Shown here piece after piece: positions 31 to 47,132 of a stretch of DNA of 47,132 nucleotides. Made by a program: the position numbers and the translations under genes. This DNA comes from Candidatus Methylomirabilis sp. Lineage in GTDB: Bacteria > DYJV01. Numbering within the stretch: the stretch's first letter is position 1; each line of letters begins with the position of its first letter. The stretch is from contig DYJV01000009.1 of the NCBI GenBank assembly GCA_020722945.1, forward strand, positions 1-47,132, given 5' to 3'. The notes beneath the pieces are model-generated. The model searched no databases and had not been told where the DNA came from. It worked only from the letters and a program-made list of their open reading frames with translations.

Positions 31-118
31 TACATTGTCCCCCTTTTTTACCTACGTATTATAACATTAAAAATTTAAATTCTACACTTTTTCATTCTTT
101 TTTTACAGGGACATTATA
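1..118 (-). mobile_element. Left-hand partial insertion sequence, IS3-like, reading out of the window
   Basis: Bases 66-118 are the exact reverse complement of 47080-47132, so the same mobile end occurs at both window edges. Read on the minus strand, the element would begin near 113 with TGTCCCTG. An AT-rich leader follows, then a strong ribosome binding site (GGGGG on the minus strand, 39-43) and an ATG at 28-30 that opens an OrfA-like frame. A short leader before orfA is typical of IS3-family elements. Five further bases outside the TG (114-118) are also shared, so the exact element tip could be 113 or 118. Family assignment rests on ten residues and the layout. Confidence 0.7.
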
Positions 119-15829: not shown

Positions 15830-15881
15830 GTTTTTTAGTTTTCTCTTCAGCCTTCAGCACTTGAGCCTTAAACCTGCTCTT

Positions 15882-15969
15882 ATTCCCCTCTTTGGAGGGG
15901 GTGGACAGCGAAGCTGGACGGGAAATTCCCCTCTATGGAGGGGTGTCACCGTCAGGTAACGGGGTGGTC
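15882..15969 (+). repeat. Two more double-hairpin repeat units
   Basis: Units at 15882-15923 and 15924-15969. The first has CCCCTC-TTTG-GAGGGG and a second hairpin CAGC-GAA-GCTG; the second has CCCCTC-TATG-GAGGGG and CGTCA-GG-TAACG, ending GGGGTGGTCATT. The period is again about 42 bases. Confidence 0.8.
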
Positions 15970-16072
15970 ATTCTTTATTTTTTTCCCTCTAAATACTCCC
16001 AACTAATAACTATCTTTCTTTTCCCACGCATATCTTTTCAATTTATGGGGGCAATTATTCTGACATATATGG
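15957..16072 (+). repeat. Long dispersed repeat, right copy
   Basis: Aligns with 1817-1928 in the same orientation, about 14 kb away. It begins within the end of the adjoining hairpin unit (GGGGTGGTCATTCTTTAT), contains ACTCCCAACTAATAACTATC and TTTTCAATTTATGGGG, and ends ATTCTGACATATATGGA. Confidence 0.75.
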
Positions 16073-16379
16073 ATTTTGAATTATTTTTTTAACTAAAAAC
16101 CTCTTGCTCTCAATTTTGATAGCCAAACAAGAAATATCTCAGAGTTGAAACGGGCATCTGGGTAATTGACAATTGATAATTTTTAATGTTGAAAATTAAA
16201 ATTCTATAATATAGAAAAATTTTAAGTTACAAACTTATATTTTTATTAAAAATAATAAAATCCATTAAATTATCTTGACAATTTCAAAAAATTTTTATAG
16301 CAACAAAAAATTATACACTGTTTTATTATTAATAATAAACAGATTTTCTTGTAAAATTAAATGATTAGGAGGATATTAA

Positions 16380-18020
16380 ATGATCCAATGGCCAAAATCT
16401 AATGATGTATTAGGGACAGTAAATCGAGGTAATCCAGCAGAATCAGGATTATGCACACTTTGCAGATCTGACTGTCAAGGTAAATGTGAAACATGGATGT
16501 CAACTCTAAAAGGTAGAAAGATGCTTTATCCGAGAGATTTCGGGACAATTACAGCAGGGTGTTCAAATACTACCCATATTGGTGTATCATACAACTCTTT
16601 GAGAATACAAGGTTACAATTATGGTGCAAACGGAATTCCTAAAGGTTTATCCAATGATCCTGATGACTGTATCTTCCCAAATGTAAATATTGAAGTTGAA
16701 TTTGGGAAAAAGATGAAAACAAAATCAAGAATTCCAATCATGACAGGGGCACTTGGTTCTACTTTTATTGCTGCAAAATATTGGGAATCTTTTGCAATAG
16801 GTGCTGCACTGGTAGGATTTCCAATAGTTATTGGCGAGAATGTTGTTGGAGTTGACAAAAACTCAATTATTAAAAATGGTAAAATATCAAAAGCTCCAGA
16901 ACTTGAAAGGAGAATTGATTGTTATCTCAAATATTATGACGGATATGGATCGATAATTGTCCAGATGAACGTTGAAGATACAAGAAATGGTGTTGCAGAA
17001 TATATTATCGATAAATATGGTGACAAAGTTATTATTGAGCTCAAATGGGGTCAAGGTGCAAAAGATATAGGTGGAGAAATTCAGGTTACTGACCTCGAAT
17101 ATGCTACATTCTTGAAAAACAGAGGTTACATTGTTGATCCTGATCCTACAAAACCTGAAGTAATCGAAGCATTCAAAAATGGTGCTATCAAGTCTTTTGC
17201 AAGACACAGTAGACTCGGTTACACCAATCTTAACAACTCTGATCAGGTAATGGCAGATTTTACTAAATCTATAAAATATTTAAGAAAAATAGGTTTTAAA
17301 AGAATCACTTTAAAAACAGGTTCTTACGGTATGGAAGCACTTGCTATGTCAATCAAGCTTGCTACAGATACAGGTCTTGACCTACTCACCATTGATGGTG
17401 CTGGTGGCGGGACAGGGATGAGCCCATGGAATATGATGGAAACTTGGGGAGTCCCTTCAATATTCCTCCACTCAAAAGCACATGAGTATGCTTCAATTTT
17501 AGCAGCTAAAGGCTGTAATGTTGTTGATATGGCTTTTGCTGGTGGTCTTGCAAGAGAGGATCATATTTTTAAAGCATTGGCACTTGGTGCTCCATATACA
17601 AAGCTTGTATGTATGGGGAGAGCATTGATGATACCTGGATTTTTAGGCTCTAATATAGAGGGTGTTCTCAAGCCTGCAAACAAAGTTAAAGTAAATGGTA
17701 ATTGGGATGCTCTTCCAAAGAGTGTTTCAGAGCTTGGTGGCAAAGCTGAAGAGTTATTCGCATCATATTTTGATGTAGAGAAGAAAGTTGGCAAAAGTGA
17801 AATGAAAAATATTCCATTTGGTGCTATTGGAGTATGGACACTATCAGACAAACTTGCAGGTGGTTTACAGCAGCTTATGGCTGGAGCAAGAAAGTTTAAT
17901 TTAAGTGAAATTACAAGAGATGATCTCTTCTCAGCAAACAGAGAGACAGAAGCAGAAACCAAAATTCCTTTTATTACTGATGTTCAGGATCAATTTGCTA
18001 AAAAAATACTTAATTCATAA
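16380..18020 (+). CDS. FMN-binding glutamate synthase-family protein, standalone
   Basis: 546 aa related to the FMN/synthase domain of the glutamate synthase large subunit (archaeal-type GltB). A (beta/alpha)8 barrel is indicated by IPIMTGALGST, IELKWGQGAKDIGGE, LLTIDGAGGGTGMSP and DMAFAGGLAREDHIFKALALGA. An N-terminal cysteine set, Cys25, Cys28, Cys32 and Cys36, may bind an iron-sulfur cluster in addition to the usual central one. No amidotransferase domain or GltD adjoins it, so ammonia and electrons must come from elsewhere, or the real substrate differs from glutamate. AGGAGG stands before the ATG; a terminator follows. Confidence 0.85.
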   Translation: MIQWPKSNDVLGTVNRGNPAESGLCTLCRSDCQGKCETWMSTLKGRKMLYPRDFGTITAGCSNTTHIGVSYNSLRIQGYNYGANGIPKGLSNDPDDCIFPNVNIEVEFGKKMKTKSRIPIMTGALGSTFIAAKYWESFAIGAALVGFPIVIGENVVGVDKNSIIKNGKISKAPELERRIDCYLKYYDGYGSIIVQMNVEDTRNGVAEYIIDKYGDKVIIELKWGQGAKDIGGEIQVTDLEYATFLKNRGYIVDPDPTKPEVIEAFKNGAIKSFARHSRLGYTNLNNSDQVMADFTKSIKYLRKIGFKRITLKTGSYGMEALAMSIKLATDTGLDLLTIDGAGGGTGMSPWNMMETWGVPSIFLHSKAHEYASILAAKGCNVVDMAFAGGLAREDHIFKALALGAPYTKLVCMGRALMIPGFLGSNIEGVLKPANKVKVNGNWDALPKSVSELGGKAEELFASYFDVEKKVGKSEMKNIPFGAIGVWTLSDKLAGGLQQLMAGARKFNLSEITRDDLFSANRETEAETKIPFITDVQDQFAKKILNS

Positions 18021-37011: not shown

Positions 37012-37740
37012 TTAAATCTGAAACTCTGTCATATATTCCCTATAAATTAGTGGAACCAACTGTTTCTGTAGCTTTATATTAATTCTTTCGGTTATAGTAA
37101 CATTATTGAAAAAAGTTTTCCATAATTTTTTAAAATCTCTCTCTTCAGATGAGAAGGATGGCAAATCAAAAGATTCAAGTTGATAAACACCCTTTACCAT
37201 ACTATTATTTAAAAATACAATACCCCTTCCAATATCATGGATAATAAATTTTTCACTCCCCAATCTTTTCTGAAAATGGTTACCAAGAAACCATAAAATA
37301 TTGTATTTAGCCTCAAATTTTGCATATAATGTCTTATCTCCCAACTCTTCAAACCGCAAAAACCCATACATTTTGTGGATATACCTGTAAAATTTCTTCT
37401 CAAGCTCATCAACAAACAGTATTGACCTATTACTTATATTATCAAGATTCTTCACATCAGAAAAACCAACTACTATGTAATTAAGTAGCTCTAATTCAAA
37501 TTTAACAGTATCACACATAAAAGTATTCAAAATTTTATTTAAATATTTTGTAGGGAAACTCTTTTTTAAAGCTTTAAAAACTTTTTCACTTTTTTGTTCA
37601 GATGATTTTATCTCAATATACTCTGAGAAGAGAAAGTTATCCCCTCCCCTTACAATATCGGAAGGTGATAATTTGTCATAATAAACATCATAAACCAAAG
37701 ATAAAAATCCTTCAAAACTACCATCATACTTTAAAATCAT
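37012..37740 (-). CDS. DUF4130 (TIGR03915-type) partner of a radical-SAM DNA protein
   Basis: 242 aa. The N-terminus YDGSFEGFLSLVYDVY and the middle ELEKKFYRYIHKMYGFLRFEEL are the hallmarks of the family annotated as a probable DNA-metabolism protein linked to a radical-SAM enzyme. Elsewhere it may be fused to or neighbour a uracil-DNA-glycosylase-like domain; none is seen here. It overlaps the radical-SAM gene by four bases, so the two are coupled. Confidence 0.85.
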   Translation of the reverse strand: MILKYDGSFEGFLSLVYDVYYDKLSPSDIVRGGDNFLFSEYIEIKSSEQKSEKVFKALKKSFPTKYLNKILNTFMCDTVKFELELLNYIVVGFSDVKNLDNISNRSILFVDELEKKFYRYIHKMYGFLRFEELGDKTLYAKFEAKYNILWFLGNHFQKRLGSEKFIIHDIGRGIVFLNNSMVKGVYQLESFDLPSFSSEERDFKKLWKTFFNNVTITERINIKLQKQLVPLIYREYMTEFQI

Positions 37741-38969
37741 AACTCACCAGTAATAGGAGTAAGATCTGTAAAGATAAGATTTTGATTCTTTTTTTCAGGG
37801 ATAAGTAAATTTTGGAAATTCCCCTTTTCAAATGAATGACCAGAAGAGTATTTACCATCAGCAGTGATGAAAAACTTTGCCCTTTTAAGAGAAATTTTAA
37901 GATATTTTAGATCCTCAAAGTTTAACCTCTTATATTTCCTTGCCTTTACTATCTTATGAGCACCCCTTATCCCTATCCCTGGAATCCTTATCAACTGCAT
38001 AAAATCAGCTTTATTTATTTCGATGGGGAAGAGGTGAAGGTTGTTTAACGCCCAGAAACTTTTAGGATCAAGAGCTTCATTGAGATTCATATTCTTCTCA
38101 TTTACTATCTCATCAAATGAAAAATTATAAAAACGGATAAGCCAGTCAGCTTGATAGAGTCTATGCTCTCTTAAAAGTGGAGGCTGCAAAGTAACAGCAG
38201 GTAATCTATTATCTTGATTTATAGGGATATAAGCACTATAATACACCCTTTTTAAAAGTTGTTTTTTATAAAGAGAGGATGAAAGTTGTAAAATATCGTA
38301 GTCAGTTTCCGGAGTGGCTCCCACTATTATCTGAGTAGTAAGCGATGCAGCCTTGCCAGTAGTATTGAGTGAAAAATTTTTTGCAGCTTTTATAGGTCCC
38401 AAGACTTTATCTTTGCTCTTATCAGGTGCAAGTAACATAAGGCTTTTGGCACTCGGAAGCTCAATATTTGAACTTACTCTGCTTGACAGTTTCATCACCT
38501 CTTTTATAATTTCAGGTGAAGAATTGGGAATTAACTTGGTATGGATATATCCATTAAATCTGTATTGGTATCTCAATATTTTCAGAGTTTTGAGTAGTAG
38601 TTCCATAGTATGGTTCTCATCTTTTATTATACCAGAACTCAAAAATAACCCTTCAATATAATTTCTTTTATAAAAATTGATTGTCAAATCAGCAAGCTCT
38701 TGCGGTGTAAAAGAAGCTCTTTCAACATCGTTGCTTGCTCTATTGATACAGTATGCACAATCGTAGATACAAAAATTTGTAAAAAGGACTTTAAGGAGTG
38801 AAATACATCTTCCATCAGGGGTGAATGAGTGGCAGATACCACTACTTTTTGTGGAACCAAGCTCACCTTTACGGTAATAATCACCTGCTCCACTTGAACT
38901 ACAACTTACATCATATTTTGCACTAATACTTAAAATTTTAAGCTTATAAAATATATCTTTTACCACCAT
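37737..38969 (-). CDS. Radical-SAM putative DNA modification/repair protein (TIGR03916 type)
   Basis: 410 aa. The 4Fe-4S SAM motif is Cys67-x3-Cys71-x2-Cys74 (CIYDCAYC), preceded by GICHSFTPDGRC, a second cysteine region typical of the family. SSGIIKDENHTMELL and SSNIELPSAKSL fit the barrel. Near residue 325 a helix-hairpin-helix (LIRIPGIGIRGAHKIVKARK) should bind DNA. Proposed to act on DNA or a base; the reaction is unknown. Always paired with the DUF4130 protein, as here. Confidence 0.88.
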   Translation of the reverse strand: MVVKDIFYKLKILSISAKYDVSCSSSGAGDYYRKGELGSTKSSGICHSFTPDGRCISLLKVLFTNFCIYDCAYCINRASNDVERASFTPQELADLTINFYKRNYIEGLFLSSGIIKDENHTMELLLKTLKILRYQYRFNGYIHTKLIPNSSPEIIKEVMKLSSRVSSNIELPSAKSLMLLAPDKSKDKVLGPIKAAKNFSLNTTGKAASLTTQIIVGATPETDYDILQLSSSLYKKQLLKRVYYSAYIPINQDNRLPAVTLQPPLLREHRLYQADWLIRFYNFSFDEIVNEKNMNLNEALDPKSFWALNNLHLFPIEINKADFMQLIRIPGIGIRGAHKIVKARKYKRLNFEDLKYLKISLKRAKFFITADGKYSSGHSFEKGNFQNLLIPEKKNQNLIFTDLTPITGEL

Positions 38970-39012: not shown

Positions 39013-39783
39013 TTAAATAGAAAATTTATCATCTGTTACATCAGCAATCCCTTCAAATAAGGGGCGGGCAAAATAGTAACCTTGGAAATAATTTATATTC
39101 AAATCTCTAAGGCATTGTAACTCTTCATATGTTTCTACACCTTCAGCAAGAAGAGATACATTAAGCTCTTTACAAATTTCAACCATTCCCTTCACAATAG
39201 ACTGCTTTGCCCTGCTATTATCTATCCCCCTTATTAGGAGCATATCTAATTTTATAAAATTAGGTTGAAAATCTGCAAGTAAATTTAATCCTGCATAACC
39301 CGAACCAAAATCATCTATTGCTGTCAAAAAATTAAGTTTTTTGTAATACTCAACTATATCCTTTATCTTTTTTGTATCTTTTACCTCTTCAACCTCAGTA
39401 ATCTCAAATATTATCTTATCAGTAGGGAATCCATAAATCTTTGCAGCTTGAAGAGTTGTCCTAATGCAGAGCTCTGGCTCATAAACAGCATTAGGGAGAA
39501 AATTGATACTCAAAAAACTTTTAATCCCAAGCTTTGCAGCTAACTCTATTGCTTTGATCCTGCAAGCCTGATCAAATTTGTATAGATTGTCGCTATTGAC
39601 CCTGCTCAAAACAAAAGCTGCAGATTCATTATTACTACCTCTGACAAGTGCTTCATAACCAAAAACCGCTCTCTGATTAAAATCAACAATAGGTTGAAAC
39701 GCCATTGTAAAATCAAATCCAAGTCCATAGCCACCATCACATCTTTCACAACCAAAATTTTTAAAATACTCTGGAATTGCCAT
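39013..39783 (-). CDS. EAL-domain cyclic-di-GMP phosphodiesterase
   Basis: 256 aa made almost wholly of an EAL domain. Catalytic and metal-binding residues look complete: EALVRG, the Asn in SINFLPN, FEITE, AIDDFGSGYAGL, FIKLD and AEGVET. A short N-terminal cysteine pair (FGCERCDGG) precedes it and might bind metal or sense redox. No other sensor or GGDEF domain. Probably lowers c-di-GMP, which would fit control of motility or attachment. The ATG at 39781-39783 has GAGG upstream; the frame extends ten codons further without one. Confidence 0.9.
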   Translation of the reverse strand: MAIPEYFKNFGCERCDGGYGLGFDFTMAFQPIVDFNQRAVFGYEALVRGSNNESAAFVLSRVNSDNLYKFDQACRIKAIELAAKLGIKSFLSINFLPNAVYEPELCIRTTLQAAKIYGFPTDKIIFEITEVEEVKDTKKIKDIVEYYKKLNFLTAIDDFGSGYAGLNLLADFQPNFIKLDMLLIRGIDNSRAKQSIVKGMVEICKELNVSLLAEGVETYEELQCLRDLNINYFQGYYFARPLFEGIADVTDDKFSI

Positions 39784-39899
39784 AATACCATTCCTCTTTA
39801 CTATAAAATACAACCTTAAAATTTTAAATAATAATTACTAATCTACTTGATTTATCTATTTTTTAGCTTTGAATCTAAATATTCAAATTTGAAATTGTA

Positions 39900-41222
39900 T
39901 TACTTTTCTATAATATCAAAAAATTTCTCCCTTGCCTGACTATGTATAACAATAGGTTTTGGATAGTCAAATAATTTTGTATTCAGAAGATACTTCTCAC
40001 TATGTAGATATTCTGAAGGAATATCTTTTAGCTGAGGTAACCAATGTTTGATATAACTCCCATCAGGATCAAATTTCTTTGAATTACTATACGGATTGAA
40101 AATTCTAAAATATGGCTGGGGGTCTATCCCTGTGCCAGCACACCATTGCCAAGATAAAACATTGGACGATTTATCAAAATCCATAAGGTAATTTGCAAAA
40201 AAATCTTCACCCCACCTCCAGTCAATATGAAGGTCCTTAGTCAAAAAAGAGGCAACTACCATTCTTGCCCTATTGTGCATATTGCCAGTAGCAAGAAGCT
40301 CTCTTATCGAAGCATCTACAATAGGAACACCTGTTTCTCCATTTGAGAACTTTATAAACTTCTCTTCGTCGTTAATATAATGTATCTTGTATCTGTAGTT
40401 AACCTTTTCAAGATTATTAAAATGGTAAAGTAGATGAGCATAAAATTCTCTAAATATCAGTTGTCTAAAAAAAGGTTCAACCTCAAGACCCTCACTCTTC
40501 CACTGAATTAAAGTTCTCAAAACTTCTCTAATGCTTATTGTGCCAAATCTTAAATCAACACCCAAATGAGATGTCGAATCAATATTGAGAAAATCTCTAT
40601 CTTTGCTGTAAGAATTAATTTTATCCTTAAATATTTTAAGTTTATCGTAAGGAGATAAAGGGGAAATATTAGAATCCTCAAAATATATATCTGATAAAGA
40701 TTCTATACTTTTAATATCATATTGAACTTGGGTCTTTTCATTACTATTACAAAGATACTCTAAATGATAAGATGGGGAGTATATAAACTTAACTTTTTGA
40801 TAAAAAGGTGTAAAAACAAGATATGGAGAACCATCATCCTTTTTTATCTGATCAGGGTCGAATATATATGTATCTTTTAATCTTTCAAAAGAAATAACAT
40901 CAGATACTTCTTTATCTCTTTTGATAGCATAAGAATCGTAATCACCAGATGCATATACTTTTTCAAAACCAGCTTCTTTTAACTTGCAAAATATCTCAAG
41001 AGGGTCACCATACAAAATGTGTAGGTTTAATCCTATTTTGAGAAGATCAGATTTTAACTTTTTTAAGTAAAACCATACAAAGCTGACTCTTTTATCTTGC
41101 TTGGAGAGAGGTTGAAGGATATTTTTGTCAAAAATAAATAAAGGAAAAACTTCACCTTTTACAGATAAACTTGGGTTGTCTCTAACTCTAAGGTCTCTTC
41201 TAAACCATAGTATCTGTTTCAT
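39900..41222 (-). CDS. phrB: Deoxyribodipyrimidine photolyase (class I-type)
   Basis: Light-driven repair of cyclobutane pyrimidine dimers. The family start MKQILWFRRDLRVRDNPSL opens the antenna-binding domain; the FAD domain holds TSHLGVDLRFGTIS, HNRARMVVASFLTKDL and WQWCAGTGIDPQPYFRIFNP. 440 aa is normal. The ATG at 41220-41222 is chosen on family similarity; an upstream TTG at 41276 and an ATG between are also in frame, and no ribosome binding site settles it. A photolyase suggests the organism meets light at times. Confidence 0.92.
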   Translation of the reverse strand: MKQILWFRRDLRVRDNPSLSVKGEVFPLFIFDKNILQPLSKQDKRVSFVWFYLKKLKSDLLKIGLNLHILYGDPLEIFCKLKEAGFEKVYASGDYDSYAIKRDKEVSDVISFERLKDTYIFDPDQIKKDDGSPYLVFTPFYQKVKFIYSPSYHLEYLCNSNEKTQVQYDIKSIESLSDIYFEDSNISPLSPYDKLKIFKDKINSYSKDRDFLNIDSTSHLGVDLRFGTISIREVLRTLIQWKSEGLEVEPFFRQLIFREFYAHLLYHFNNLEKVNYRYKIHYINDEEKFIKFSNGETGVPIVDASIRELLATGNMHNRARMVVASFLTKDLHIDWRWGEDFFANYLMDFDKSSNVLSWQWCAGTGIDPQPYFRIFNPYSNSKKFDPDGSYIKHWLPQLKDIPSEYLHSEKYLLNTKLFDYPKPIVIHSQAREKFFDIIEK

Positions 41223-41353
41223 AAAAAGAGTTGTAGCAGAGATTGGAATAATTTTCAACATCTTTAAATTACTCAATATTGGCAGATAATTTTAAAATAA
41301 TTTGACATTTTAAAACCAAAATAATAAGCAAAAGATTAAATCTTTAATCAGAA

Positions 41354-43069
41354 TTGGAGACTAAAGCAGAATTGATAAACAAATTACGTTCACTACTTAC
41401 AAGAAGGGATAAACAATTTTTACTATTTCTCCTTATCTTTTCAATATTCATATCAGTAATGGAAACCGCAGGTGTATCAGTAATAATGCCATTTATCTCT
41501 GTTGCGAGCAACTTTTCGCTTATAGATAGCAACAAATATTTTAATTTTTTATACTCTCTATTTGGTTTTAGGGAACATATAGATTTCGTAATAGTTTTTG
41601 GAATTTTCCTTATAATTTTCTATTCAGTTAGAAGTGCCATAAATCTCTTCTACTTTTACCTACTATCAAGATTTTCAAAAGGTAGATACCATCTTCTTGC
41701 TTATAGACTTTTTGAGAACTATATCGGTATGAGCTACCACTCTTTCATTCAGAAAAATAGTGCTGATATTAATAAAGCAATTATAAATGAAGCACAAAAC
41801 CTTACCAACATTATTTCAGCAATACTATTTATGATGAGTGAGATATTTGTGGTAATGTTTATCTACTCTATGATGCTTTATATTAACTGGAAAATTACAA
41901 TTCTACTGACCATAATACTTATCTTTAATTCACTTCTCCTCATACTTACTATCTCTAAAAAAATTAAGAGAGCAGGAGTAAAAAGGGAGGAGCATCAGAA
42001 AAAATTTTACGAAATAATAAATACCACACTTGGTAATTTCAAAATTATGAAATTACGCTCCAATACAGATGAGATACTCAAAAAATTCATCGAATCAAGT
42101 TCAGGTTTTGCAAAAGTAAATATTCTTAATGAGACTCTTGTGCAGTTTCCAAGATTATTCCTTGAAGCAGTAGGTTTCTCAATAGTTACTTTTGTAGTGG
42201 TATATCTTGTTTTTAAATATCAGAGAGATGTATCTTCAGCTCTTGGACTTATATCTATGTTTGTGCTTGGACTTTACAGACTCATGCCATCAGTCAATAG
42301 GATACTTAGCAGTTACAACCAAATACTCTACAACAAACGTTCCCTTGATATTGTCCATAATGACCTTATGTATAGAAGTGAAGAGTTAAAAGATAAAGAG
42401 ATAGAATTTAACGATAAGATAGAGTTGAGAGATATATCATTTGAATATAACAAAGATAGGATTGTTCTAAAAAATATAAATATTACAATTAAAAAGGGTG
42501 AAAAGATAGCTTTTGTAGGTGAAAGTGGCAGTGGGAAAACAACCTTAGTTGATATAATCATCGGCCTTTACAAACCTCAAACTGGCTTTATTGCAGTAGA
42601 TGGGAAGAAACTAAATCAGGATAACATAAAATCTTGGAGAAGAAAGATAGGTTATATACCTCAATCTGTTTATCTCTTTGATGGGACAGTTGCACAAAAT
42701 GTTGTTTTTGATGGAGTTGAAGATAGAGAAAAAGTTATAGATGTTCTTAAAAAAGCAAATATTTACAAATTTCTACAAACTCAAGAGGGGATTGACACAG
42801 TTGTTGGTGAAAATGGAATAAAATTGAGCGGAGGACAGAAACAGCGAATTGCAATAGCAAGGGCTCTCTACCACGACCCTGAAATCCTTGTCCTTGACGA
42901 AGCTACAAGTGCACTTGACAACGAAACAGAGAGCAACATAATGGATGAAATTTACACACTTGCCGAAAGTAAGACAATGATAATAGTTGCCCATAGATTA
43001 TCAACCATAAGTAGATGTGAAAAGAAGATAGAGCTTTCAAACGGTGTAATCAGAGAAAATCAAAATTGA
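41354..43069 (+). CDS. ABC exporter, PglK-like (lipid-linked glycan flippase type)
   Basis: 571-residue half-transporter: six helices, then an ATPase domain with GESGSGKTT, a Q-loop in IPQSVYLFDG, LSGGQKQR, ILVLDEATSALD and AHRLST. The first helix, FSIFISVMETAGVSVIMPFISVAS, recalls PglK/WlaB flippases for lipid-linked oligosaccharide. Substrate is inferred only; no glycosyltransferases adjoin. The start is TTG at 41354 without a clear ribosome binding site. Divergent from the photolyase. Confidence 0.75.
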   Translation: METKAELINKLRSLLTRRDKQFLLFLLIFSIFISVMETAGVSVIMPFISVASNFSLIDSNKYFNFLYSLFGFREHIDFVIVFGIFLIIFYSVRSAINLFYFYLLSRFSKGRYHLLAYRLFENYIGMSYHSFIQKNSADINKAIINEAQNLTNIISAILFMMSEIFVVMFIYSMMLYINWKITILLTIILIFNSLLLILTISKKIKRAGVKREEHQKKFYEIINTTLGNFKIMKLRSNTDEILKKFIESSSGFAKVNILNETLVQFPRLFLEAVGFSIVTFVVVYLVFKYQRDVSSALGLISMFVLGLYRLMPSVNRILSSYNQILYNKRSLDIVHNDLMYRSEELKDKEIEFNDKIELRDISFEYNKDRIVLKNINITIKKGEKIAFVGESGSGKTTLVDIIIGLYKPQTGFIAVDGKKLNQDNIKSWRRKIGYIPQSVYLFDGTVAQNVVFDGVEDREKVIDVLKKANIYKFLQTQEGIDTVVGENGIKLSGGQKQRIAIARALYHDPEILVLDEATSALDNETESNIMDEIYTLAESKTMIIVAHRLSTISRCEKKIELSNGVIRENQN

Positions 43070-43218: not shown

Positions 43219-44565
43219 ATGGGGCTAAAAAACAATACATTCACTAAAATAAATAGCGATACCAACCAAAATTATATGACTCTCAAGGTCAAATGCTCCA
43301 ACAAATTTCTACCCATCGTCACATCTTTTGCAGAGGAAGCTGCTGGTGCATTCGGTTTTGGGATAGAAGAGAGATTTTCATTGAGGCTCGGAGCTGAAGA
43401 GATATATTCATATATATGCAAAATTCTCTCATTTGACACCTTTATAGAGATAATTGTTTCAAATGGCGGATATTTTATGGAGTTATCATTTATATTTTCA
43501 GGGCATATCCCTTTAAGAACATTCAATCTTACCACATCAATATCTCTGGATAATGATCAAGACATAGATGAACTTGGTCTTATGCTTGCATCAAGAACAT
43601 CAGATAAATTTCAGGTTTATGAAGACAATAAGGGGAATATCTGTTTATCCCTAATAAAGGAGAAAACCTACCCATTTGCCACAAAAGAGAAAGAGCTTCC
43701 ATCTTTCAAAAATATTGAATCTTCCTCTGTTACCACTCCCAACAATGAAGAGCTTAAACTTTTTTCAAAATATTTAAGCAATTTTCCAAACAACCAGCTA
43801 ATCCCAGATTTTATTAATTATCCTGGGAAACTTGTTGACATGGTTACAAATGGAACATTCAATGCTTTGATTGCAAAAACTACTGACAATCATATAACCG
43901 GAGGGATTATCTGGAATCTTTTAAATCATAAATTAATAGAATTTTATGGACCTTACACTCTTACTCCAAATTTAAACAAAGATATTAATGAGCAATTGAT
44001 CGAACATTTTATCCAATCCGTTGCTAAATCAGGAGTTACCGGATTATTCTCAAAAGTCCACAACAACTCTCTCTCTCTTGAATATTTTGAAAAGATAGGT
44101 GAACTAAGAGTGCACAACACTTCAAAAGAGCAGCCAGACAACATCCAAGTCTATTTCAGACAGCTCAATGAAGATTCTGGTGGGACTGTATGGTGCGACA
44201 TCTCTGTAAAAGATTTTTTATTTGAGACTTACAGCAATCTTTTTCTTACAAGAAATATAGAGGTTGTAAAAGAGATGGGAGAAATTTTCTCTCCATACTC
44301 TGTAATATCAGCAGAGATCAACAGATTTCAAAAAACAGCAGTATTAAGAGTAATAGAATTTGGTGCTGATATAAAAGATAATCTTTATAAACATATCCAA
44401 CTTCTAAATAGCGAACTCATTAATAATATCTTTTTTGAGATAGATCTTGGAATATCTTGGCAGGCATACACTATCCCTGCTCTGAAAGAGGCAAACTTTA
44501 CCCCAAAAGTAGTAATCCCCTCTGCAGGTGTCAGTGATATAATTATTTTTCAGTGGATTGAATAG
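43219..44565 (+). CDS. RsbW-like ATPase domain fused to a GNAT-like domain, unknown function
   Basis: 448 aa. Residues about 20-155 resemble the HATPase_c_2 fold of anti-sigma kinases: FAEEAAGAFGFGIEERFSLRLGAEEI, then DELGLMLASRTSDKFQVYEDNKGNICLSLIKEK, matching the end of RsbW-type domains. The N-box Asn expected after the Glu-Glu pair is replaced (EEIYSY), so ATP binding may be lost. The rest resembles one or two acetyltransferase-like units (GTFNALIAKTTDNHITGGIIW, EYFEKIGEL). GGAGAG precedes the ATG at 43219. hisC follows after three bases. Function unknown. Confidence 0.6.
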   Translation: MGLKNNTFTKINSDTNQNYMTLKVKCSNKFLPIVTSFAEEAAGAFGFGIEERFSLRLGAEEIYSYICKILSFDTFIEIIVSNGGYFMELSFIFSGHIPLRTFNLTTSISLDNDQDIDELGLMLASRTSDKFQVYEDNKGNICLSLIKEKTYPFATKEKELPSFKNIESSSVTTPNNEELKLFSKYLSNFPNNQLIPDFINYPGKLVDMVTNGTFNALIAKTTDNHITGGIIWNLLNHKLIEFYGPYTLTPNLNKDINEQLIEHFIQSVAKSGVTGLFSKVHNNSLSLEYFEKIGELRVHNTSKEQPDNIQVYFRQLNEDSGGTVWCDISVKDFLFETYSNLFLTRNIEVVKEMGEIFSPYSVISAEINRFQKTAVLRVIEFGADIKDNLYKHIQLLNSELINNIFFEIDLGISWQAYTIPALKEANFTPKVVIPSAGVSDIIIFQWIE

Positions 44566-44568
44566 ATA

Positions 44569-45684
44569 ATGCCTTACTCAAATTTACAAAATCTGATTCC
44601 AGATTATATAAAAAAATTTGAAGCCTATACCCCTTCAAAGCCTGACGATATCCTTTGTAAAACTTTCCATTGTCCACATCTTTACAGGCTCAACAATAAC
44701 GAAAACCCTCTTGGACCACCTCAAGCATCTCAAAAGATAATAAAAGAGTTTCTACCTTTTAAAGCATCAGTTTATCCAAGTGGTGATTCATACCATCTTC
44801 GATCTAAACTTGGAGATAAATTTAATTTACATCATGACCAATTTCTTGTTGGCAATGGAGCTAATGAGTTAATTTCATTCGTAATTAAAGCTTTTTGCGA
44901 AAAGGGAGACAATATCGTTACTGCTGACAAAACTTTTGCAGTCTATGAATGGGTAGCTGAATTTTCAGGTTTTCAAAGCAAGCTCGTTCCACTTCTCAAC
45001 TACGGTTTTGATCCTGAGGGGATTTTAAATGCCATAGATAACAAAACCAAAATTATCTTTATATGCAACCCCAACAACCCTACCGGGACTTACTGGGATA
45101 CAACTACTCTGACAAATTTCCTTGATAGAGTCAACGGGCGGCAGATTGTTGTTCTTGATGAAGCTTATTTTGAATTTGTTGATAAAGAAGATTACCCTAA
45201 TGGGATGAATTTAATAGAGCGATATCCAAACCTTGTAGTATTCAGAACTTTTTCCAAAATGTATGGTCTTGCAGGGTTAAGAGTAGGATTTCTTGCAGGG
45301 ACAATAGATGTTGTTGACACAATAAGGAAAACTTGTGTAGTTTATTCAGTCAATGTTCTTGCACAAGAAGCTGCTACCGCTGCACTTGATGATGATACAC
45401 ATATTTACAAAACTCGTAATCTTATCAAAACTGAAAAAAATTTTATAACAGAGGAGCTTTCTCGTTTGGGAGTTTACCATATCTCTGGTGAAGGTTGTTA
45501 CCTTATGTTTAAGCTGCCTATTAGTGATACTCTTGCCTACAGGAAATTTATAACTCAAGGGATTATTATAAGGAGTATGACAGGTTTTAGATTTCCCAAC
45601 TGGATAAGGGTGAGTATCAGCACACATCAAATTATGGAAAAATTTATAGATACATTAGAAAAGATACTTAAAAAAAGAGTTTAA
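44569..45684 (+). CDS. hisC: Histidinol-phosphate aminotransferase family protein
   Basis: 371 aa fold-type I aminotransferase. LNNNENPLGPP, NPNNPTGT, LDEAYFEF and the PLP lysine in FRTFSKMYGLAGLRVGF, plus IRVSIST near the end, are HisC signatures. It normally makes histidinol phosphate in histidine synthesis, though close relatives act on aromatic or other amino acids. No other his genes are near. It sits between the RsbW-like/GNAT gene and the xdh-type gene with gaps of three and two bases. Confidence 0.85.
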   Translation: MPYSNLQNLIPDYIKKFEAYTPSKPDDILCKTFHCPHLYRLNNNENPLGPPQASQKIIKEFLPFKASVYPSGDSYHLRSKLGDKFNLHHDQFLVGNGANELISFVIKAFCEKGDNIVTADKTFAVYEWVAEFSGFQSKLVPLLNYGFDPEGILNAIDNKTKIIFICNPNNPTGTYWDTTTLTNFLDRVNGRQIVVLDEAYFEFVDKEDYPNGMNLIERYPNLVVFRTFSKMYGLAGLRVGFLAGTIDVVDTIRKTCVVYSVNVLAQEAATAALDDDTHIYKTRNLIKTEKNFITEELSRLGVYHISGEGCYLMFKLPISDTLAYRKFITQGIIIRSMTGFRFPNWIRVSISTHQIMEKFIDTLEKILKKRV

Positions 45685-45686
45685 AA

Positions 45687-47084
45687 ATGAAAAATAATAT
45701 TTTTGATATATCTTGCGAAATAGGGGCGAGAATCCCAAGAGTTGATGCCTACGAAAAAGTTATAGGTAAGACAATCTATGCGTCAGATTACCACTCAAAA
45801 GATATGTTATGGCTTGGAGTAAAAAGAGGTGGTGCACCACACGCTAAAATACTTGATATAGATATAGAACAAGCCTCAAAAGTCGATGGTGTAGTAAAAA
45901 TTTTTACCTACAAAGATGTTAAAGGCACAAATCGTCAAGGGGTTGCTAAAAAAGATCAGCCTGTATTAGTTGACAGCATCATAAAACATTACGGAGATCC
46001 TATTGCACTTGTTGCTGCAAAAGATATAGCATCACTAAAAGATAGTCTTGATAAAATAGTTATAAAGGTAGAACCTCTCACCCCTATCTTTGATGTTGAT
46101 GAAGCATTAAAGAGTAACGCTCCACTGATACAGCGGGAGAATTCCGAAACAGACAACAAATTATTAGGTGGTAAGATAAAAAAAGGTCTTGGAGCAAAAG
46201 GTTTTGAAGAGTGTGATGTTGTAGTAGAGTTAGAGATAAATCTTCCTATGCAGGAGCACGCTTATATAGAGACCGAAGCGGGCTGGGCAATAATGGGTGA
46301 AGATGGGAGATTGAATATTACTGTATCCACTCAGACACCTTTTAGAGATAGATTTGAAGTCTCTGAAGCACTTGGTATCCCATTAGAGAGAGTAAATATA
46401 ATTGCTCCCTATTGCGGAGGAGCATTTGGTGGGAAAGATGGGATAACTGTCCAGACATTTCTTGGCCTTGCAGCTATCAATTTACCGGGTAAACCTGTAA
46501 AAATCTACAATAGTCGTGAGGAGAGCTTTGTATCAAGTAGCAAAAGACACCCTGCAAAAGTTTTTTACAAACTTGGAGCAAAGAGTGATGGATCACTCAA
46601 TACCCTATATGCAAATATAAAATACGATACTGGTTGTTACGACCACTTAGGTGGTGTGGTTATGGCTCTTGGGCTTGAGCATGCTGGCGGGGCATACCGT
46701 ATTCCAAATACCGAAATTGAATCTGCCAGCATCTATACCAACAATCCTTTGGGTGGTGCATTCAGAGGGTTTGGGGTTACGCAGGTAAATGCAGGATTAG
46801 AACAGATTATTGATATGATTGCAGAGAAGCTCAAAATATCAGATATAGATATACGGATGAAAAATCTTATAAATAAAGGGGAAAAGAGTGCTATTGGCTC
46901 CACAATAACCACTTCAATGGGATTTAAAGAGTGCCTCAAAACCATAAGCGAACACTATTTTTACAAAAATAGGGAAGAGTGGAAAGATGGAGCTGCTAAA
47001 AATTTTAAACGAGGTGTGGGAATTGCTTCTGCTATTCATGGGATAGGATATGGTCCAAAAGTCCCGGACATTGCAAATGTATAA
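45687..47084 (+). pseudogene. Xanthine dehydrogenase-type molybdenum subunit, interrupted by an insertion sequence
   Basis: 465 codons of a protein that in this family is usually about 750 residues. The first domain is ARIPRVDAYEKVIGKTIYASDY. The molybdopterin-binding part has TVSTQTPFRDRFEVSEALG, PYCGGAFGGKDG and GAFRGFGVTQVNAGLEQIID. Similarity continues to PKVPDIANV, where the frame meets TAA at 47082-47084, right at the start of the insertion-sequence end. The C-terminal third, including the catalytic glutamate region, is absent from the window. Family substrates include purines and aldehydes; the FAD and iron-sulfur subunits are not here. Last gene of a three-gene run. Confidence 0.85.
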
Positions 47085-47132
47085 TGTCCCTGTAAAAAAA
47101 GAATGAAAAAGTGTAGAATTTAAATTTTTAAT
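47080..47132 (+). mobile_element. Right-hand partial insertion sequence, same element as bases 1-118
   Basis: All 53 bases are the exact reverse complement of 66-118. The element starts TGTCCCTG at 47085 and points out of the window, opposite to the left copy. It interrupts the xdh-type gene. The five bases TATAA outside the TG are also shared by both copies, so the element may begin at 47080 or the two target sites may be alike. Confidence 0.7.

Follow-up and report, generated by a model that had tools for sequence, protein, structure and literature searches.

A conserved RsbW/GNAT-like protein and HisC-type aminotransferase pair as the candidate core of a proposed metabolite biosynthesis and export cluster in anaerobes

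Three genes, A, B and C, close the window, which is the whole of contig C134 from start to end (47,132 nucleotides; Table 1). Proteins A and B are encoded side by side across phyla and in three genomes form a single polypeptide, and genes for a molybdenum hydroxylase, a second A-like protein and a transporter recur around them. With confidence that is evenly poised, we propose that A and B are a functional pair and the core of a cluster by which anaerobes would make and export a small nitrogen-containing metabolite, that A may gate B, and that the copy in the window is apparently broken. If this is true, an apparently undescribed metabolite pathway is common to many uncultured sulfate reducers and syntrophs and to some Firmicutes, and its core would be a new architecture in which an anti-sigma-type domain fused to dead acetyltransferase domains works with an aminotransferase. 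No description of this gene combination turned up in the open-access literature that was searched; one may exist elsewhere.

Gene layout and conservation of the A-B pair

The window belongs to a 2.51-Mb draft assembly of 184 contigs that is 98.1% complete and 5.8% contaminated. A re-check of the open reading frames bore out the coordinates of the three genes and the gaps of 3 and 2 bases between them that the earlier note had given, and the frames of A and B are intact. The start of A is the ATG at 43219, with GGAGAG a few bases 5' of it, while the mechanically called ORF begins at TTG 43201. Promoter and terminator scans gave no excess over shuffled sequence. A PglK-like ABC transporter (41354-43069; 704 bits against an equivalog cut-off of 1000) lies immediately 5' of A across a gap of 149 bases, and further 5' are a photolyase-family protein (39900-41276), a RimA-like EAL phosphodiesterase (39013-39813; 345.9 bits against 430) and the TIGR03915 and TIGR03916 neighbours (37012-38969; a putative DNA-repair protein and a UDG-linked radical SAM protein); the two TIGR families both exceed their cut-offs.

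Table 1. Positions of the genes, domains and terminal repeats in the window
Feature	Position	Strand	Description
Gene A	43219..44565	+	448 aa; RsbW/SpoIIAB-like domain and tandem GNAT-like region
RsbW/SpoIIAB-like domain of A, residues 16-152	43264..43674	+	Fold match of the predicted model; without the N-box Asn or a glycine-rich G1 box
First GNAT-like domain of A, residues 167-322	43717..44184	+	Fold match of the predicted model
C-terminal part of A, residues 323-446	44185..44556	+	Shares homology with the C-terminal region of cluster protein E
Gene B	44569..45684	+	371 aa; HisC-type PLP aminotransferase paralogue; 3 bases after A
Gene C	45687..47084	+	Truncated gene for a molybdenum-hydroxylase large subunit of xdhA type: 5' 60% present (465 of ~770 aa), 3' end missing; 2 bases after B
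53-bp repeat	47080..47132	+	Contig end, where the stop of gene C falls; probably an insertion-sequence end
Inverted copy of the 53-bp repeat	66..118	-	100% identical; opposite end of contig C134

The lineage of the window is thinly sampled: among 60 genomes searched as relatives, A is present in one besides the window's own. In the phylum of that second A-bearing genome (Desulfobacterota-type), 31 of 297 sampled genomes contain relatives of A. Such relatives also occur in 80 named loci, which come from Desulfobacterota-type MAGs, Firmicutes and one Competibacteraceae MAG. The cultured hosts Sporomusa malonica, Clostridium thailandense and Syntrophomonas wolfei subsp. methylbutyratica make the cluster directly testable. 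A first scan of genome contigs with a single A protein as query returned no relatives, and none was present in the viral contigs searched. Additionally, a Thiodictyon plasmid (L108) carries a relative of A in the order A-hisC-MFS-IS607-XdhC-XdhB-E, together with RsbW, SpoIIE, binding-protein and STAS genes; the IS607-type transposase genes (15850-17879) sit between MFS and XdhC.

The two genes share a strand in 80 of 85 loci, B coming after A with gaps between ORFs of -385 to +10 bases, commonly -4, as measured from mechanically assigned starts. In L145, L164 and L185, A and B are fused into one polypeptide of 799-819 residues, with the motifs of A on the N-terminal side and those of HisC on the C-terminal side. 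The order A-B-XdhA is likewise kept in relatives across phyla. The gene order and the fusions give good support to the suggestion, made earlier from the close spacing of the three genes, that they share a single function. The outcome that the earlier note named as refuting it, an order kept by no second genome, is thereby ruled out. In L159 and L186, relatives of A occur without B nearby, through either a real absence or the limits of the contigs.

Predicted architecture of A and assignment of B

No Pfam or NCBIfam family matches A above cut-off, the sole hint being HATPase_c_2 (PF13581) at 13.7 bits against a gathering score of 27.4. An AlphaFold2 model built from a 66-sequence input (pLDDT 89.8, pTM 0.87) resembles known folds in two regions. 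Specifically, VIA-align matches residues 16-152 of the model to RsbW/SpoIIAB structures, with Z 17.1 to 1l0o_A (135 residues, rmsd 3.4), Z 17.0 to 1til_E and Z 16.6 to 6m37_C (1.9 Å over 112 residues), and a profile search of PDB sequences is in weak agreement, RsbW proteins being its sole matches (E 0.12-0.18). Residues 167-322 adopt a predicted GNAT fold (Z 15.7 to 4mbu_A; 146 residues, rmsd 2.2). The C-terminal part is putatively called GNAT-like because of its homology to protein E, a second A-like protein of the cluster: in an hhalign profile comparison, residues 155-442 of A align with residues 8-311 of E over 283 columns (E 1.8e-6, probability 89.8). A is therefore best described as an E-like protein with an added RsbW-like domain; its parts are an RsbW/SpoIIAB-like domain and two GNAT-like domains, the second putatively so.

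The ATP and acetyl-CoA motifs expected of these folds have disappeared from the family. Across 66 relatives, the N-box retains two invariant Glu residues, and the position that aligns by motif with its ATP-binding Asn is Tyr, Phe or His in all 66, the preceding position being Asn in only 7; the D-x-G-x-G of the G1 box is absent from columns 84-106, and the acetyl-CoA loop, Q/R-x-x-G-x-G/A, is unrecognisable in columns 239-262. Because the N-box Asn, the glycine box and the acetyl-CoA loop are lost, A is unlikely to work as a kinase or as an ordinary acetyltransferase. Like the RsbW/SpoIIAB anti-sigma factor kinases, A has the fold of residues 16-152 and the N-box Glu pair, and STAS, SpoIIE and true RsbW genes are linked to it in many loci; unlike them, it lacks the N-box Asn and the G1 box, falls under the Pfam cut-off and continues into a tandem GNAT-like region, with the aminotransferase fused on as well in three genomes. 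The predicted structure, the motif columns and the alignment of A with E show that the earlier note was correct in reading A as a degenerate ATPase fold of the anti-sigma type with acetyltransferase-like domains attached.

B scores 295.1 bits against the TIGR01141 hisC model (cut-off 276.55), which upholds its label as a HisC-type aminotransferase. HisC enzymes are its closest solved structures, and B and its relatives, of which the complete ones adjoining A are about 53-67% identical to it, keep the PLP lysine (FRTFSKMYGLAGLR conserved) and the C-terminal arginine positions typical of HisC. B could thus be a working histidinol-phosphate aminotransferase on a side branch of histidine metabolism, with the other genes modifying an imidazole compound. 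Against this, a second HisC on contig C4 reaches 352 bits and outscores B, which rules B out as the only HisC of the genome; the conserved neighbourhood of B relatives holds no further recurrent his gene; and these relatives carry motifs of their own, TFAVYEW and TGFRFPN, unlike the other HisC. We consider a histidine side branch quite improbable. B differs from ordinary HisC in being a second genome copy, in its coupling to A and in these conserved motifs.

The hydroxylase gene and the state of the cluster in the window's genome

C matches the PF02738 molybdopterin-binding domain (E 1.3e-71), and the assignment to the molybdenum hydroxylases stands; as a complete gene it does not, since C comprises the first 60% of the protein. 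Specifically, C aligns to its relatives at 44-59% identity through residue 464 and stops inside a conserved block, GYGPKVPDIAN, that the relatives, about 760-800 aa at full length, continue; a naturally short protein was rejected on this ground. The frame ends at the 53-bp repeat, of which less perfect copies lie near the ends of contigs C152, C2, C37 and C53. Just inside the inverted copy is the start of an ORF whose first residues, MSKKRKNYSA, appear to resemble IS3-family orfA; the repeat probably marks one terminus of an insertion sequence. No named IS could be matched to it, and the only HTH_Tnp_1 match, on C119, is a different element.

The missing parts of the cluster were sought in the rest of the draft assembly. 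An orthologous xdhA 3' half or XdhBC was not found there, the matches being paralogues on C19 and C164, and the three other MoCoBD_2 genes of the genome were rejected as the missing half because they are complete paralogues with 31-33% identity to C. E was found only as a 3' remnant inside contig C157; within this remnant, a run of N (L189, 1403-1501) with identical sequence on either side makes the scaffold uncertain. No STAS, RsbW or SpoIIE partner-switching genes were seen beside the genes of the window. Because xdhA ends at an IS-like repeat, E is only a remnant and XdhBC orthologues were not found, the cluster looks broken in this genome, and incompleteness of the draft may contribute.

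The same observations bear on a further reading, compatible with biosynthesis and export in relatives, in which the trio of the window itself is a decaying, functionless leftover and A and B survive by chance after insertion and rearrangement. The cut in xdhA, the remnant of E on C157 and the failure to find the rest of this XdhA or orthologous XdhBC in the assembly all favour decay; the intact frames of A and B speak against it, the missing pieces may sit in unassembled sequence, and decay is silent on the cluster in other hosts. We regard decay as a real prospect that falls somewhat short of even.

For an intact XdhA relative, the best solved match is the nicotinate dehydrogenase of Eubacterium barkeri (3hrd; 282 bits for the large and 147 bits for the medium subunit), which places an intact XdhA close to this enzyme and other molybdenum hydroxylases; unlike nicotinate dehydrogenase, XdhA is one chain instead of two, and the window copy is without its last 40%. 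The XdhA family retains STQ and AFRGFG-type motifs. A full-length relative in L069 falls under the NCBIfam xanthine dehydrogenase equivalog cut-off (pucD, 516.7 bits against 783.65), and at the positions that align by motif with the bovine xanthine-contact residues, which we take to be E802 and R880, XdhA has Asp in 48 of 48 sequences and Leu or Met in 48 of 48, with no Glu or Arg. Since the contact positions are Asp and Leu/Met in all 48 sequences, xanthine is an unlikely substrate. A complete xanthine dehydrogenase was rejected, as C is truncated and its full-length relatives have neither above-threshold scores to the xanthine models nor the contact residues. The earlier idea that the genes process a nitrogen heterocycle or amine fits the kinship of the intact hydroxylase with nicotinate dehydrogenase and is otherwise kept here as a conjecture.

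Linked genes and a proposed role in biosynthesis and export

Linkage was assessed by comparing the same reference proteins with 32 A-bearing loci of at least 17 kb and with 40 stretches, mostly of 20 kb, from elsewhere on A-bearing contigs; related genomes are not independent, and the counts are descriptive. XdhA is present in 25 of the 32 long loci (missing from 7), XdhB in 24, XdhC in 26, E in 23, MFS in 19 and MATE in 7, each against none of the 40 controls. One or other transporter is found in 26 of 32 loci, and both together in none. Pfam confirms Xdh maturation genes linked to A-B in some loci. Protein E matches no Pfam family; its model (pLDDT 94.2) has a predicted GNAT fold at residues 13-185 (Z 14.1 to 1yvo_B), and the acetyl-CoA loop is partly retained, as R-x-x-G-I in many members. 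The transporter and this second GNAT protein as parts of the set, like the truncation of the hydroxylase, had escaped the earlier note.

Regulatory genes are linked as well. At least two of STAS, RsbW and SpoIIE accompany A in 13 of 32 long loci against 1 of 40 controls, which supports, for the relatives, the suggestion that the process is regulated. Pfam confirms among these regulators SpoIIE with a Cache sensor and HAMP, STAS, HATPase_c_2 and an NMT1/THI5-like binding protein. Partner switches that act on something else than a sigma factor are a known type; the linkage of SpoIIE phosphatase, STAS and RsbW genes to A-B resembles such systems, and differs from them in that the putative target would be the RsbW-like domain within the metabolic protein A itself.

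We propose that B would transaminate a precursor, that XdhABC would oxidise a ring carbon or an aldehyde in it, that E would acylate the compound and that the MFS or MATE transporter would secrete the product, export being the assumed direction. A may be a catalytically dead scaffold or gate that holds or gates B. In particular, an unphosphorylated STAS protein could bind the RsbW-like domain of A, and the SpoIIE phosphatase would thereby set the activity of B. The absence of partner-switching genes from more than half of the 32 long loci counts against the proposal, as do the two loci that have A with no B close by and the seven long loci without XdhA.

Because MFS proteins can import, a catabolic role is possible, and catabolism of a nitrogen heterocycle is the main rival to biosynthesis and export: the transporter would import a heterocycle or amine, XdhABC would hydroxylate it, B and E would process it further and the regulators would induce the genes on substrate. 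Nicotinate dehydrogenase, to which XdhA is closest among solved structures, is a catabolic enzyme, and the NMT1/THI5-like substrate-binding protein encoded beside SpoIIE and STAS in some loci could sense a substrate. On the other hand, the conserved neighbours include no recurrent ring-opening hydrolase or amidase, MATE, best known for efflux, substitutes for MFS, and a GNAT step is unusual in catabolism. We hold catabolism to be rather unlikely.

Within the preferred reading of biosynthesis and export, a bolder version, to which we give little credence, is that the product is an exported anaerobe signal which its producers perceive by way of the NMT1/THI5-like binding protein and the Cache-SpoIIE phosphatase encoded nearby, with STAS acting on the RsbW-like domain of A to switch the aminotransferase directly. 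A STAS protein switching the aminotransferase via A would mean that the partner switch controls an enzyme pair, not a sigma factor. The NMT1/THI5-like gene lies near STAS, RsbW and SpoIIE in L123, L134, L135, L136, L144, L165 and L108, and these genes are perhaps a ligand-sensing partner-switch module of their own.
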